Below are positions 738 through 43,698 of a stretch of DNA of 43,698 nucleotides, one piece after another; positions within the stretch are counted from its first letter, which is position 1, and each line of letters starts with the position of its first letter. Source of the stretch: a virus. The stretch lies in IMG/VR virus record IMGVR_UViG_3300037041_000924, positions 1-43,698 of that record; one strand, 5' to 3'. The position numbers were made by a program, and so were the translations under genes. A model generated the notes under the pieces. It was not told the DNA's origin. It searched no databases and saw only the letters and a list, made by a program, of their open reading frames with translations.

Positions 738-971
738 TTACCGAACCTCCACCATTGTGGAGGCTCGGAAAGATGCGCGACCCTTATTTCCGCCTTTGCT
801 GACCATCGGAGGAACTCCGCGATGCTTGATGGTGTGCGGAAGGTCAACGTAGTCGATGAACACGTCCTTTGTTCCGTTCCCGATGGTGTAGGCATCGGAT
901 GTTGCAACTGCTGGCGTGTTGCCATACTTGAACTTCATCCCTGCTTTGATTTCGGTGGCTTGCGTTTTCAT
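738..971 (-). CDS. Small phage protein, unknown; the only leftward gene
   Basis: A 77-residue protein, MKTQATEIKAG... with a KAGMKFKYG segment that suggests a small beta barrel, but I do not recognise the family. It is supported as a real gene by its own promoter and leader. On the minus strand a TATATTTG box (997-1004) and the leader CATCAACAAACAACAACAC precede the ATG, the same arrangement found ahead of the rightward genes at 7730, 8552 and 19136. It converges on the endolysin gene. Its last 19 bases recur at 43680-43698, where the contig ends. Divergent transcription from the putative origin region makes an early or regulatory role possible. Confidence 0.7.
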   Translation of the reverse strand: MKTQATEIKAGMKFKYGNTPAVATSDAYTIGNGTKDVFIDYVDLPHTIKHRGVPPMVSKGGNKGRASFRASTMVEVR

Positions 972-996
972 GGTGTGTTGTTGTTTGTTGATGGGT

Positions 997-1057
997 CAAA
1001 TATATGTCAAAGAATTGAACCCGCAATACCCCGACCCAACTTTGTGACAAACGGTTA
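997..1057 (-). promoter_or_regulatory. Leftward Bacteroidota promoter with upstream box
   Basis: Read on the minus strand: TAACCGTTTGTCACA (1043-1057), then TATTG (1024-1028), a 19-base spacer, then TATATTTG (997-1004), then a CCCATCAAC leader to the ATG at 971. The -7 element is a perfect TAnnTTTG. The same three-part layout appears at 7644-7704 and 8472-8522. Confidence 0.75.
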
Positions 1058-7643: not shown

Positions 7644-7704
7644 TAACCATTCGTCACATTTTTCCGTTGGGGTATTGCAGGTTCGGAAATTATCCCAATC
7701 TTTG
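7644..7704 (+). promoter_or_regulatory. Promoter with TAAC-N6-TCACA box
   Basis: TAACCATTCGTCACA (7644-7658), TATTG (7673-7677), 19-base spacer, AATCTTTG (7697-7704), then leader CCCATCAACGAACAACAACA up to the ATG at 7730. The layout matches the leftward promoter at 997-1057 almost base for base in the boxes. Confidence 0.7.
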
Positions 7705-7729
7705 ACCCATCAACGAACAACAACACGCC

Positions 7730-7996
7730 ATGAACACCTACACCAGCACCAGCAGCGAAACCACCACCGCTACCCGCAACAGCAAGAACGCAGGTTTTAC
7801 CTTCGCCGTATGGATGGCAAACACCGAAGCCAACGCCGCCCGCAACTGGTGGCTGGCCGGGCCGCGAGACATGAGCCTGCGCTGTACAAATTGGTTCAGC
7901 AGCATGAAAAGCGCGGAAAGCATCGCGAACAAGTACCGCAAGGATGGCTTCAGGGTTGAAATTCGCCCCGCCATTCAAACCACCGCCACCCCATGA
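7730..7996 (+). CDS. Small protein, unknown
   Basis: 88 residues with a Ser/Thr-rich start (MNTYTSTSSETTTATRNSK) and a basic, aromatic middle (ARNWWLAGPRDMSLRC). It is the first gene after a strong promoter with the shared CCCATCAAC leader, so it is probably expressed early and well. No family recognised. Confidence 0.65.
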   Translation: MNTYTSTSSETTTATRNSKNAGFTFAVWMANTEANAARNWWLAGPRDMSLRCTNWFSSMKSAESIANKYRKDGFRVEIRPAIQTTATP

Positions 7997-8471: not shown

Positions 8472-8522
8472 TAACGTCTCATCACAAACATTTGCACACG
8501 TCAGAACGAACCGCCATCTTTG
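8472..8522 (+). promoter_or_regulatory. Promoter with TAAC-N6-TCACA box
   Basis: TAACGTCTCATCACA (8472-8486), TTTG (8491-8494), a 20-base spacer and CATCTTTG (8515-8522), then the CCCATCAACGAACAACAACA leader. Third member of the shared promoter family. Confidence 0.65.
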
Positions 8523-8551
8523 GCCCATCAACGAACAACAACAACACGAAC

Positions 8552-10379: not shown

Positions 10380-10486
10380 AGCGCCATAGTCCAAGGGTAG
10401 GACGTGGCATCGGTGACCACGCAAATATAAGTGCTGGGTTTATGAACTCCGGTGCCAAGGTGCGGGTTCGACCCCCGCTGGCGTTA
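10380..10486 (+). tRNA. tRNA-like element with a very long variable region
   Basis: AGCGCCA (10380-10386) pairs with TGGCGTT (10479-10485). D-arm GTCC-AAGGGTA-GGAC (10389-10403) and T-arm GCGGG-TTCGACC-CCCGC (10462-10478) are canonical. Between them, CGTGG/CCACG enclose CATCGGTGA, giving a nine-base loop or a seven-base loop with a C-A mismatch; CGG would be the anticodon (proline). A 40-base variable region contains a ten-pair hairpin (10431-10455). No CCA is encoded. It may be a genuine odd tRNA, a decayed one, or a tRNA-like RNA signal. Confidence 0.45.
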
Positions 10487-18843: not shown

Positions 18844-18931
18844 GGGGGCGCGGAGAGGCGAACATGGGTATGCCTATCCCTCAGTACCTTCACAGGCACC
18901 GCGCCCCCAACCGTCCGTCACTATTTTTTTG
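18844..18931 (+). terminator. Long hairpin followed by a T-run
   Basis: GGGGGCGCGG (18844-18853) and CCGCGCCCCC (18899-18908) form a perfect ten-pair stem around a 45-base partly folded loop; seven Ts follow at 18924-18930. This probably terminates the operon that carries the glycan cassette. The large loop could also be a small RNA. Confidence 0.5.
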
Positions 18932-18958
18932 AGGTGTCATATTGGGTGTTTACTTTTG
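18928..18958 (+). promoter_or_regulatory. Promoter TTTG-N19-TACTTTTG
   Basis: TTTG at 18928-18931, exactly 19 bases, then TACTTTTG at 18951-18958: a full match to the Bacteroidota consensus. Transcription would start just before the hairpin at 18972-19006. Confidence 0.5.
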
Positions 18959-18959
18959 G

Positions 18960-19016
18960 GCCTAACAATCCGCAGGTTGTGGGTCGTTTTAATGCCCACA
19001 ACCTGCTGTTATGGGC
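18960..19016 (+). repeat. attC-like site A
   Basis: Starts with GCCTAACAAT (R''-like, 18960-18969), continues with a perfect 12-base stem GCAGGTTGTGGG/CCCACAACCTGC (18972-18983, 18995-19006) and ends with GTTATGGGC (R'-like, 19008-19016). TAAC pairs with GTTA, with unequal spacers (5 and 1 bases) between outer and inner stems, as in integron attC sites. It lacks the bulged extrahelical bases I would expect in the inner stem. Confidence 0.45.
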
Positions 19017-19077
19017 TGGCCTACCCCCTTCTAAAACCCTTGGTAAATGCGGGAAAGTGAAAATAGTTGCAGATTTA

Positions 19078-19110
19078 TTTGGTCCGCTCGGAACTATGTA
19101 CATATATTTG
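19078..19110 (+). promoter_or_regulatory. Promoter with shared CCATCAAC leader
   Basis: TTTG (19078-19081), 21-base spacer, TATATTTG (19103-19110), then GGCCATCAACAAACAACGAC to the ATG at 19136. Fourth copy of the leader family, without the TAAC-N6-TCACA box. Confidence 0.65.
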
Positions 19111-19135
19111 GGCCATCAACAAACAACGACACACC

Positions 19136-19342
19136 ATGAACGCCCCTAAGAACATCACCACCGCAAAAGGAACCAAGCTCACACTGGTTGAGCAAATGAC
19201 CGGCATCTCCGACATCGGCTGCACGATGCAAGCCGGGTACGTTGGCGGAAAAGGAGTAGAGTATTTGGTGCAGTTCTTCGGCAGCAAGATCGCCCGCATC
19301 ATCAGCACCGGAAGTGGCAAGGTTGAAACCATAATCCTCTGA
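19136..19342 (+). CDS. Small protein, unknown
   Basis: 68 residues, MNAPKNITTAKGTKLTLVEQ..., Gly-rich with predicted short strands. First gene after a strong promoter with the shared leader. It lies inside the interval bounded by the inverted pair GTTATGGGC (19008) and GCCCATAAC (20295). No family recognised. Confidence 0.65.
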   Translation: MNAPKNITTAKGTKLTLVEQMTGISDIGCTMQAGYVGGKGVEYLVQFFGSKIARIISTGSGKVETIIL

Positions 19343-19345
19343 GCC

Positions 19346-19675
19346 ATGAAAAAGCTGGACTACATAACGCTGTACGGACCGCCAATGCAAGGTGGATACG
19401 ATATCCATGTCGAGCGCAAGATGCACATCTTTGACAGCGAGACAAAGGCGGCAGTGGCCACGATTGAGCACTCTTTGAAAGACCAAGATGCCAAGCAGTA
19501 CGCAAACCTATTCGTCGCTGCACCCATGCTCTTAGAAAGCCTTGAGGACGTGCTTCGCATGTGGAAGAATGAACGCGACCATTACGAGACACATTGCCGC
19601 CCATACGTAGAAGAGGCTGAAAAAGCGATACGTATGGCCAGGGGCATCGAAGACACGTCTAACCTACCCATGTAG
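19346..19675 (+). CDS. Phage protein, unknown
   Basis: 109 residues. The middle KQYANLFVAAPMLLESLEDVL is a motif common in small phage accessory proteins (NLFVAAPMLLExL), of unknown function. Three bases separate it from the previous gene and two from the next. Confidence 0.65.
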   Translation: MKKLDYITLYGPPMQGGYDIHVERKMHIFDSETKAAVATIEHSLKDQDAKQYANLFVAAPMLLESLEDVLRMWKNERDHYETHCRPYVEEAEKAIRMARGIEDTSNLPM

Positions 19676-19677
19676 CC

Positions 19678-20037
19678 ATGAGCATCACACTTGACCAACT
19701 CGACAAAATCGTTCACGCGCTGAACGAAGACATCGGAGGTTCATCCGGTTACATGGCCGGGCTTTACAGCACCGGATACACATACGGAATTTCAATCGGC
19801 GACTTTGCCCTATACGACCCAGACCACCACACTACCGACGATGATAGCGACGAGGCCGAACAGGTAGAAAGGATTTGCAGGGATAGCCTTATCGACTTCT
19901 GTAACTTTTGGGCGGAGTGCCGTGTGCGCATTTACGCCACACGAAAGGATAGACTTCACCCTATGGAAGATGATGATGAGCGGGAGCCTCTTGATCTTTG
20001 GGACATTGGCGATACTCACGATTGCTCAAACGGATAG
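19678..20037 (+). CDS. Acidic protein, unknown
   Basis: 119 residues, very acidic (TTDDDSDEAEQVER, MEDDDEREPLDLWD). Such charge suggests a DNA mimic or interaction protein, but nothing more specific can be said. Followed after four bases by the regulator gene. Confidence 0.65.
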   Translation: MSITLDQLDKIVHALNEDIGGSSGYMAGLYSTGYTYGISIGDFALYDPDHHTTDDDSDEAEQVERICRDSLIDFCNFWAECRVRIYATRKDRLHPMEDDDEREPLDLWDIGDTHDCSNG

Positions 20038-20041
20038 CCGC

Positions 20042-20290
20042 ATGACACCTAAGCAGATCGGCGCAGCGGTGCGCAAGGCAAGAGGCCAGCGGAGCATCCG
20101 GGAAGTATCCGGGGCCGCTGGCCTCCACCGCGATCAGGTGACGGGCATCGAGCAAGCGACGAAGGCTTACACAGTGCTCAGTCTCTTGGCTCTTTGTAAG
20201 GTCGTTGGGCTGCATTTGCATTTACAGGCCAAAGGCTCAGAGGCTGCATTTACCAAGGATGCAACTGACTCAGACGATGTTCGGGGGTAG
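20042..20290 (+). CDS. Helix-turn-helix regulator, Xre/Cro type
   Basis: 82 residues. IGAAVRKARGQRSIREVSGA with AGLHRDQVTGIEQATKAYTV has the five-helix Xre layout: scaffold helix, turn (GAAG), recognition helix and the IEQ helix. The ATG at 20042 was chosen because the longer frame would run inside the previous gene. It is the only full repressor-like protein seen. The stop is followed after four bases by GCCCATAAC, the start of attC-like site B, which is the usual spacing of a cassette gene and its attC. Confidence 0.75.
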   Translation: MTPKQIGAAVRKARGQRSIREVSGAAGLHRDQVTGIEQATKAYTVLSLLALCKVVGLHLHLQAKGSEAAFTKDATDSDDVRG

Positions 20291-20294
20291 GCTT

Positions 20295-20353
20295 GCCCAT
20301 AACGGACAGGCATTGACGCCGCGCTCTGGTGGCGACAATGCGGTGTTAGGCCA
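20295..20353 (+). repeat. attC-like site B
   Basis: CATAAC (20298-20303) faces GTTAGG (20345-20350) with TAAC/GTTA paired. Inside lies GCATTG-A-CGCC (20310-20320) paired with GGCG-A-CAATGC (20331-20341), with a single A-A mismatch. Spacers between outer and inner stems are unequal (6 and 3 bases). GCCCATAAC is the exact reverse complement of GTTATGGGC at the end of site A. Confidence 0.5.
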
Positions 20354-20393
20354 CGTTCTTTCTCTCATCAGGTGACAGGTAAAAAGCAACAAC

Positions 20394-20630
20394 ATGGAAA
20401 CGGGTAAGTGGATTGACATCAACGAAAAGCTGCCAGACCCACATCAGTCGGTATTGCTCAGGATGAGGCACGGAGGCGAAACGGTTGTAGGCTTTCTACA
20501 CATGGGAGAAACGCTGAGGTGGACGGCACCAAAGCCGTATCCTGCAAGGATTGGCGGAGCGGATGGCTGCTATGAAGGCGGGTTCGAGTTCTCCAGAGTT
20601 TCTCACTGGTGTCCTTGTCCCTCTTTTTGA
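20394..20630 (+). CDS. DUF551 family protein
   Basis: 78 residues. GKWIDINEKLPDPHQSVLLR, then a W-x-P stretch and the closing VSHWCPCPSF match the DUF551 pattern (W-I/V-x-V-x-E-x-LP ... V-x-HW-x-P-L/C-P), a small domain widespread in phages and of unknown function. The gene sits exactly between GTTAGGCCAC (20345-20354) and GTGGCCTAAC (20633-20642), which are perfect reverse complements, as 5' boundary and R'' box of an integron cassette would be. Confidence 0.8.
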   Translation: METGKWIDINEKLPDPHQSVLLRMRHGGETVVGFLHMGETLRWTAPKPYPARIGGADGCYEGGFEFSRVSHWCPCPSF

Positions 20631-20632
20631 AT

Positions 20633-20725
20633 GTGGCCTAACGTGCAGCTATGCGGCGCGTGTTGGGATCGTGCGGTGGAAAAGTGCCGTATAGCGTGTG
20701 TTCTGCGCCGTGCTTTCTTAGGGTA
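20633..20725 (+). repeat. attC-like site C
   Basis: Begins two bases after the DUF551 stop. CCTAA (20637-20641) pairs with TTAGG (20718-20722); inside, CGGCGC (20654-20659) pairs with GCGCCG (20705-20710), extended by two wobbles, around a variable region of about 45 bases. The R'-like end is CTTAGGG instead of GTTRRRY, so this end looks decayed. Confidence 0.4.
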
Positions 20726-20768
20726 TTGAGGCCATTGGGCCAGTGGTGTAACTAAACAATGAACGACG

Positions 20769-20963
20769 ATGGAAGACAAACTCTATGAACGGGCCAAGGC
20801 AGTAATCAAGAAGCACAATATTGCAAGCGCCCCGTTCCTGCAACGCAAGCTCTACATCGGGTGGAGGATGGCCTGTTCAATAATTGACAGGCTTGAGGCT
20901 GATGGCATCATTGGTCCGCACAACGGAGCAAGGCTTCGCACCATTGACATGAGCAAGTTGTAA
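20769..20963 (+). CDS. FtsK gamma domain-like winged-helix protein
   Basis: 64 residues, all of it one domain: LYERAKAVIKKHNIASAPFL, then QRKLYIGWRMACSIIDRLEA and DGIIGPHNGARLR. This closely follows the gamma domain of FtsK/SpoIIIE (S-x-x-x-LQR-x-x-x-IGYNRA-x-x-I-x-x-LE-x-x-GI-V/I-G), which reads polar sequences on the chromosome and activates XerD at dif. Here it stands alone, without motor. It could occupy host polar sequences, act on Xer recombination, or simply be a transcription factor of that fold. Confidence 0.8.
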   Translation: MEDKLYERAKAVIKKHNIASAPFLQRKLYIGWRMACSIIDRLEADGIIGPHNGARLRTIDMSKL

Positions 20964-21027
20964 TTGCATGGCGCAGAGCATACGATAAACCACAGTCCGT
21001 CCAACAAACGACAGCAAACGGTTACAA

Positions 21028-42787: not shown

Positions 42788-43258
42788 ATGGACATCCCAC
42801 GGATTAAGCACTTGGCTGCTCAGATGATAGATCCATCTGGCGGCGCACGGGTCGCACAGATCGCAGGCGTTAGCATTGCTGCCGCCTCTTCATTTGTCAT
42901 GCCTGTAAAGCATTTCCTATTCATCATCGGTGCGCTGGTGCTGGTGGATATGTACACCGGGTGGAGAGCGGCAAAGAAGCTGCGCGGTGAACGCTTCAAC
43001 TCCAAGGGCATGGGCGGCACGATCGAGAAGACGGTGCTGTACATGCTGGCGGTGCTGATATGCCGTGGCGTTGATGTGTCCTTCGGGATGGACGGGAACA
43101 TCGGTACGACATACGTTGTTGCTGGCCTAATTTGTGGCCGCGAACTACTGAGCAACCTTGAGAACATCGGCAAGGTGACGGGCCTTGACCTTGCTACTAA
43201 GGTGCGCGAAATGTTCGGCCACCTGTTCACATCAAAGCCGAATGATGACAATCAATAG
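42788..43258 (+). CDS. Holin (complete copy)
   Basis: 156 residues. Hydrophobic segments at about 24-36 and 40-52 (HFLFIIGALVLVDMYTGW), another at about 80-95 (TVLYMLAVLICRGV) and one near 105-115 (TTYVVAGLI) fit the holin_4 (phi29/TcdE-like) family, with the DxxTG motif after the first hairpin. It permeabilises the inner membrane for the amidase encoded next. The left contig end carries a three-residue variant of its last 104 residues. Confidence 0.82.
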   Translation: MDIPRIKHLAAQMIDPSGGARVAQIAGVSIAAASSFVMPVKHFLFIIGALVLVDMYTGWRAAKKLRGERFNSKGMGGTIEKTVLYMLAVLICRGVDVSFGMDGNIGTTYVVAGLICGRELLSNLENIGKVTGLDLATKVREMFGHLFTSKPNDDNQ

Positions 43259-43698
43259 GGAACATGCGGAGCATCACTCATTGCGTAGTTCATTGCACAG
43301 CCACGCCCCAAGGCGCAACGGTCGCAAGCGTACAACGGTATTGGAGGGAGGTTCTGAAGTGGCGAAGTCCGGGGTATCACGTGATCGTGACGCCATCCGG
43401 TGCGGCTGTGAGACTTGCACCCGACGAGGCGTTGTGTAACGGCGTGGCGGGCCATAACAGGACGAGCCTACACGTTAGCTATATAGGAGGGGTGGATACC
43501 AATGGTAAGCCGATGGATAACCGCACGCCGGAACAAAAGGCCACGCTGAGGCTTGTGCTAAAGGCATGGAGGGAAAAGTACCCGACCGCCAAGATATGCG
43601 GACATCGGGACTTTGACGGGGTGAAAAAGGCTTGTCCGAGCTTCCACGCCAAGGATGAGTATCGCGACCTGTAACGCAATTACCGAACCTCCACCATT
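42943..43698. repeat. Terminal direct repeat, right copy
   Basis: Colinear with 1-756. The last 127 bases are identical to 630-756, the first 114 to 1-114. Contains the end of the holin gene, the whole endolysin gene and the first 19 bases of the convergent gene's 3' end. Confidence 0.95.
43264..43674 (+). CDS. Endolysin, N-acetylmuramoyl-L-alanine amidase (right variant)
   Basis: 136 residues, same family and same predicted zinc ligands (H10, H114, C124) and catalytic Y38 and K122 as the left copy. Nine substitutions separate the two, clustered before residue 103; the last 34 residues are identical. Being preceded by a complete holin gene, this variant belongs to the assembled main strain path, and the left copy is probably the minor allele or the reverse. 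Confidence 0.88.
   Translation: MRSITHCVVHCTATPQGATVASVQRYWREVLKWRSPGYHVIVTPSGAAVRLAPDEALCNGVAGHNRTSLHVSYIGGVDTNGKPMDNRTPEQKATLRLVLKAWREKYPTAKICGHRDFDGVKKACPSFHAKDEYRDL

Follow-up and report, generated by a model that had tools for sequence, protein, structure and literature searches.

Chained attC-like sites delimit cassette arrays without a detected integrase in the genomes of related mosaic phages

The DNA stretch analysed here (the window) comprises the 43,698 bases of an IMG/VR record and comes from an uncultivated virus of a bacterium. Its phage genes include those for the small and large terminase subunits (TerS and TerL), tape measure, portal, lysis and replication. Between a glycosyltransferase/methyltransferase block and the terminase genes lies a row of small genes punctuated by three attC sites within 1.8 kb. 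A CALIN is defined by at least two attC sites close together without intI, and a complete integron by the presence of that gene together with an attI site; no match to TIGR02249 or PF00589 was found in the window, a record that may be incomplete, and no tRNA or Rfam RNA is present at the array. The first and last 756 bases (1 to 756 and 42943 to 43698) form a direct terminal repeat which is only 90.8% identical, so that the record is probably a complete genome with circular permutation, the two ends of the contig overlapping but differing through strain variation. Elsewhere, a tRNA-like element with a long insert in its middle occurs at 10380 to 10486 (Rfam 48.5 bits; ARAGORN calls no tRNA), and an open reading frame near the lysis genes contains about 20 direct repeats of 15 bases (1568 to 2032).

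All three sites lie on the plus strand. Site A (18957 to 19017) is an orphan, with no cognate cassette start upstream; its R'' box, ..GGCCTAAC, ends at 18966, its stem is a perfect 12 bp, and its junction G|TT falls at 19008/19009. A terminator-like stem is located just upstream. Site B (20294 to 20354) starts with GCCCATAAC (20295 to 20303), 4 bases past a stop codon, and has its junction at 20345/20346. Site C (20633 to 20709) starts 2 bases past a stop codon with GTGGCCTAAC (20633 to 20642), contains the inner stem GCTATGCGGCGC/GTGCCGTATAGC, and ends in the R' box G|TTCTGCGCC, which places the junction at 20700/20701. In each site an R'' box ending in AAC and an R' box starting with GTT surround an L''/L' stem. 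Among the R' boxes, GTTAGGC fits the consensus GTTRRRY, and GTTATGG and GTTCTGC deviate from it at one or two positions. The end of site A and the start of site B (GTTATGGGC/GCCCATAAC) are exact reverse complements, as are the end of site B and the start of site C (GTTAGGCCAC/GTGGCCTAAC). An earlier note, made from the sequence alone, had described sites A and B, their hairpins and junctions, both links and the two adjacent stop codons as we find them. It had also placed the start of site C correctly, but its right end at 20725 was rejected, as the fold over that span gives z of about 0 and a covariance model built from other phages ends at 20709. The sites were also folded and compared with shuffled sequence, the bottom strand having been proposed as a check in that note. 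Site A is much more stable than its shuffles on either strand (z -5.2 and -5.5) and site B moderately so, and site C gives no signal over the span first proposed, because its right end was wrong.

The junctions delimit three cassettes, of which the first two had been recognised and are real, but the third had been missed. Cassette 1 (19009 to 20345, 1337 bp) carries four open reading frames on the plus strand: one of 68 aa without a family (19136 to 19342), one of 109 aa belonging to phrog_1273, of unknown function (19346 to 19675), one of 119 aa without a family (19678 to 20037), and one of 82 aa (20042 to 20290) that is regulator-like, with a helix-turn-helix by reading and no Pfam hit. Cassette 2 (20346 to 20700, 355 bp) holds a DUF551 gene (PF04448; 20394 to 20630). 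Cassette 3 (20701 to 20979) encodes a 64-aa protein with an FtsK_gamma domain (PF09397; 20769 to 20963) and ends in a truncated attC consisting of the R'' box GGCGCAGAGC only (20970 to 20979). Complementarity between a cassette's own R'' box and its 5' start is exact in cassettes 1 and 2; in cassette 3, GGCGCAGAGC differs at a single position from the reverse complement of the start, GTTCTGCGCC.

Directly before site A we found a promoter-like element, TTTG-N19-TACTTTTG (18928 to 18958, plus strand), which is predicted to function as a promoter. It is the sole occurrence of TTTG-N18-20-TAnnTTTG in the window, with 0.25 expected in shuffles, and TATATTTG occurs 8 times against 0.8 expected. Promoters of the TTTG/TAnnTTTG type are a trait of Bacteroidota, and on the basis of these two patterns the host of the phage is likely a member of that phylum. 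Within cassette 1, a promoter/leader copy (19100 to 19140) is common to other genes of the same phage, with further copies at 967 to 1007 (minus strand) and 7698 to 7737 and a weaker one at 8501 to 8543. The leader pattern otherwise gave only chance matches in IMG/VR, apart from one related phage, G002. The 21-mer CCTTGGTAAATGCGGGAAAGT (19038 to 19058) is identical upstream of an early HNH-HTH-ERF operon of G002, and the regulator-like protein of cassette 1 is 64% identical to the product of a backbone gene in that operon. Cassette 1 therefore has the appearance of an operon of phage origin that has been packaged in cassette form, and its large size may be due to this. One reading frame (L004, 1957 to 2697) unites an HNH nuclease with the regulator gene that is a homolog of the one at 20042 to 20290.

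We evaluated how readily such chaining arises by chance, scoring every G|TT for a perfect reverse complement of its 9-mer 120 to 2500 bases downstream, with an attC-like hairpin on both sides. At a hairpin score of at least 23 the window yields two links, joined in the one chain A-B-C, and none of 300 dinucleotide shuffles contains any link; at a score of 20, one link appears in 10 of 300 shuffles and a chain in none. Links without the hairpin requirement are not decisive, and complementarity alone was rejected as proof, since a 9-mer chain is present in 20 of 200 shuffles. As a positive control, a looser scan allowing one mismatch recovers cassettes of phage TJE1 at 250 to 1513, together with weak background.

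Searches with TerL identified two related phages, G001 (77-78% identical, 21 kb) and G002 (54%, 42.6 kb). A third, G003 (54 kb; like G002, from IMG/VR), shares replication genes that are 71-74% identical and was found via the pattern CGTGCGGTG..CGTTCTTT, whose remaining matches were due to chance. The window phage, G002 and G003 are mosaic phages of one pool. Three further arrays are encoded in these genomes, two in G002 and one in G003, and their small genes are unrelated to those of the window. The first G002 array lies about 6 kb upstream of TerL and begins with an orphan attC, followed by the cassette TTGGCCCCC..GGGGGCCAAC, which has a 70-aa gene, and then by an attC ending in G|TTCTGCGCC; its last cassette holds a 45-aa gene and ends in GGCGCAGAAC. 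An IS200/IS605-type TnpB gene is inserted downstream (L002, 1046 to 2197); its closest matches, at 45-49%, are in methanogen and Bacteroides plasmids, and its use as a tracer yielded no host. In G003, an array of four cassettes adjoins a terminase-like gene. Most G002 and G003 cassettes show exact complementarity between R'' and start, and the box pairs GTTGGCCCC, GTTCTGCGCC and GTTGTATGCA each occur in more than one array, while the cargo genes tested across the four arrays are small and have no homology to one another. Searches by DNA for similar arrays in 50,697 phage records and 72,556 plasmids returned none for the window or G003 arrays, and a search of the 72,556 plasmids returned none for the second G002 array.

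A covariance model (R1) built from four G002 and G003 sites, without window sequence, recovers site B with exact ends at 39.3 bits (E 4e-8 over 210 kb) and site C with exact ends at 16.3 bits (E 0.003 over 5 kb, 0.13 over 210 kb). The same model revealed the second G002 array, next to the lysis genes (L033, 11179 to 11850). With site B included, the extended model R2 recovers site C at 20633 to 20709 with 27.3 bits (E 1e-4 in the window). Under either model, site A remains close to noise. Compensatory changes are observed in 9 of 17 stem pairs of the aligned sites and in none of 500 shuffles; the alignment was fitted to the structure and is biased toward it, and sliding the partners destroys the signal. 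The strong palindrome of site A and the terminator-like stem beside it are what ordinary terminators or regulatory hairpins with fortuitous complementarity would produce, but this explanation is contradicted by the 0 of 300 shuffles, the R1 matches at exact ends and the covariation, and we regard it as exceedingly improbable.

The four arrays share a common frame. At the left, each begins with an attC that has no cognate cassette start, and the leftmost R'' boxes all end in TAAC. At the right, each closes with an R'' box alone, after which comes TANGAAATARAC, of which the window copy (20980 to 21013, plus strand; TANGAAATARACCAC-like in the other arrays) has decayed to ATACGATAAAC. Searched with zero mismatches in the four phage genomes, the 15-mer with AAC is found only at the three other array ends. 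A single split site on the minus strand, GTYTATTTCNTAG|TTA, would account for both ends of the arrays, and the right-end element is perhaps an inverted attI-like site; no empty copy of it was detected in G001 to G003. We tentatively propose, as a rather doubtful extension, that every array has at its right end an attI-like landing site belonging to the phage itself, and that the phages act as dedicated cassette acceptors for which a host integrase works in trans. On the minus strand, each array would then be canonical, consisting of the site, the cassettes and a full last attC, and the genes would point toward the site, to be expressed by phage promoters on the other side.

Comparison with related phages had also been suggested in the earlier note. 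The window and the first G002 array agree from TG|TTCTGCGCCGT.CTTTCTT rightward, so that cassette 3 has its start in common with G002, and the attC sites to the left are unrelated. The breakpoint falls at most one or two bases from the crossover predicted at 20700/20701, and the junction reads G|TTCTGCGCC in both phages. The closest relative, G001, has no array at this place (window position 18430 matches L001 position 9181, and the terminase genes follow), but it is not a clean empty site, because its TerS is only 33% identical to that of the window. G001 also has a counterpart of the tRNA-like element (L001, 31 to 125), 78% conserved and near the same helicase gene. Similar rows in two related viruses hold different genes, so that an exchange of cassettes among these phages, or between them and their host, is probable. 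An unlikely alternative is that the cassettes are fossils of one acquisition from a host integron, and that only homologous recombination and mosaicism, without the action of an integrase on phage DNA, have shuffled them between phages since. Such a history would fit phages that are mosaics of one pool, whose shared leaders and right-end element offer homology for exchange, and it would fit the lack of a detected integrase and the decay of the window's right end and R'' box. It is opposed by the position of the G002 join so near to G|TT, by cargo genes that all differ inside constant frames, and by compensatory changes that keep the stems pairing, the outcome to be expected if folding is under selection.

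Extrahelical bases do not settle which strand recombines: a left-arm two-base bulge is present in 3 of 11 sites and a right-arm bulge in site C and site 0 of G003, the rest having mismatches only, while the TJE1 sites used as control carry the canonical base. This lack of a uniform extrahelical base, the deviation of several boxes from GTTRRRY, the bare R'' ends, and complementarity that runs past the usual 7-base boxes could also indicate hairpin units of a different, undescribed system moved by another recombinase, each unit combining a hairpin and a constant leader with long terminal inverted repeats of the form GTTnnnnnnC[G/A]TTC..GAATGnnnnnnAAC. We consider this quite improbable, since the box spacing, the G|TT junction, the gene stop abutting R'' and the inner stem are all attC-like, and published lytic-phage sites of similar design recombine with IntI1 (PMC9892861).

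The claim that integron-type cassettes are present in this phage is therefore supported: the chained R'/R'' boxes, hairpins, covariation and matches to an independent model are observed, and relatives carry other cassettes in the same frame. We consider it probable that the locus is a phage-borne CALIN of three attC-separated cassettes that are swapped by a host integrase and whose cargo is expressed from the adjoining promoters. During infection, phage replication would generate single-stranded DNA in which attC sites fold, and the tyrosine recombinase of a host integron, the likeliest route, would act in trans and cut the folded strands at G|TT, so that cassettes could be gained and swapped. 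The promoter before site A and the phage-type promoter in cassette 1 would express the cargo, which probably provides accessory functions in host takeover or counter-defence. Against this explanation count the nonuniform extrahelical bases, the near-background scores of site A with R1 and R2, right ends without a final attC, and the state of the G001 locus. In agreement with the earlier note, no IntI was detected, nor any other tyrosine recombinase, in the window or in G001 to G003, records that may be fragments. No host array was found in a genome collection searched with one exact attC pattern. Separately, a single attC-like hairpin (GTCTAAC..GTTAGAC) occurs on the minus strand of an inovirus-like 6.1-kb genome with a Zot-like gene by reading (L021, 3640 to 3730); a single-stranded phage bearing a site of this kind would be ideally suited as an integron substrate.

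Sedentary chromosomal integrons of bacteria have attC sites that fall into families of similar sequence, and their single-gene cassettes vary. The present arrays resemble them in combining a family of similar sites with varied cassettes, but they are short, lack intI and a proven attI, and are located on phage genomes. Contrary to the earlier note, which took phage cassette arrays to be undescribed, Qi et al. (2023; PMC9892861) reported 17 CALINs in phages, including lytic TJE1, PH101 and Bacteroidota phage P12002L. In that study IntI1 recombined 5 of 6 tested sites, lytic-phage attC among them, and inverted GTTRRRY motifs were noted at CALIN boundaries in TJE1 and M16-3 (PMC9892861). Literature searches turned up no other phage survey. 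The arrays described here are similar to those of TJE1, PH101 and P12002L in having attC cassettes with R'/R'' chaining, no integrase, small cargo and a lytic-type phage as carrier. TJE1 differs in its canonical extra base in the left arm and in an array ending in a full attC. The four arrays described here belong to one site family and close with a lone R'' box and, after it, a constant element; the inverted G|TT box at the array edge recalls the boundary motifs of TJE1 and M16-3, but here the edge is a conserved element found in four arrays of three phages. What is new is the occurrence of four arrays, with one covarying site family and uniform ends, across three mosaic phages that have promoters of the Bacteroidota type, and an apparent exchange at the predicted junction between related phages. 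Phage CALINs were previously known as scattered cases; here a constant frame and constant ends hold different cargo across related phages, which points to repeated cassette exchange in the phage lineage. If this holds true, phages would not only carry cassettes of the integron pool but also use them, and their landing site would be defined and testable.
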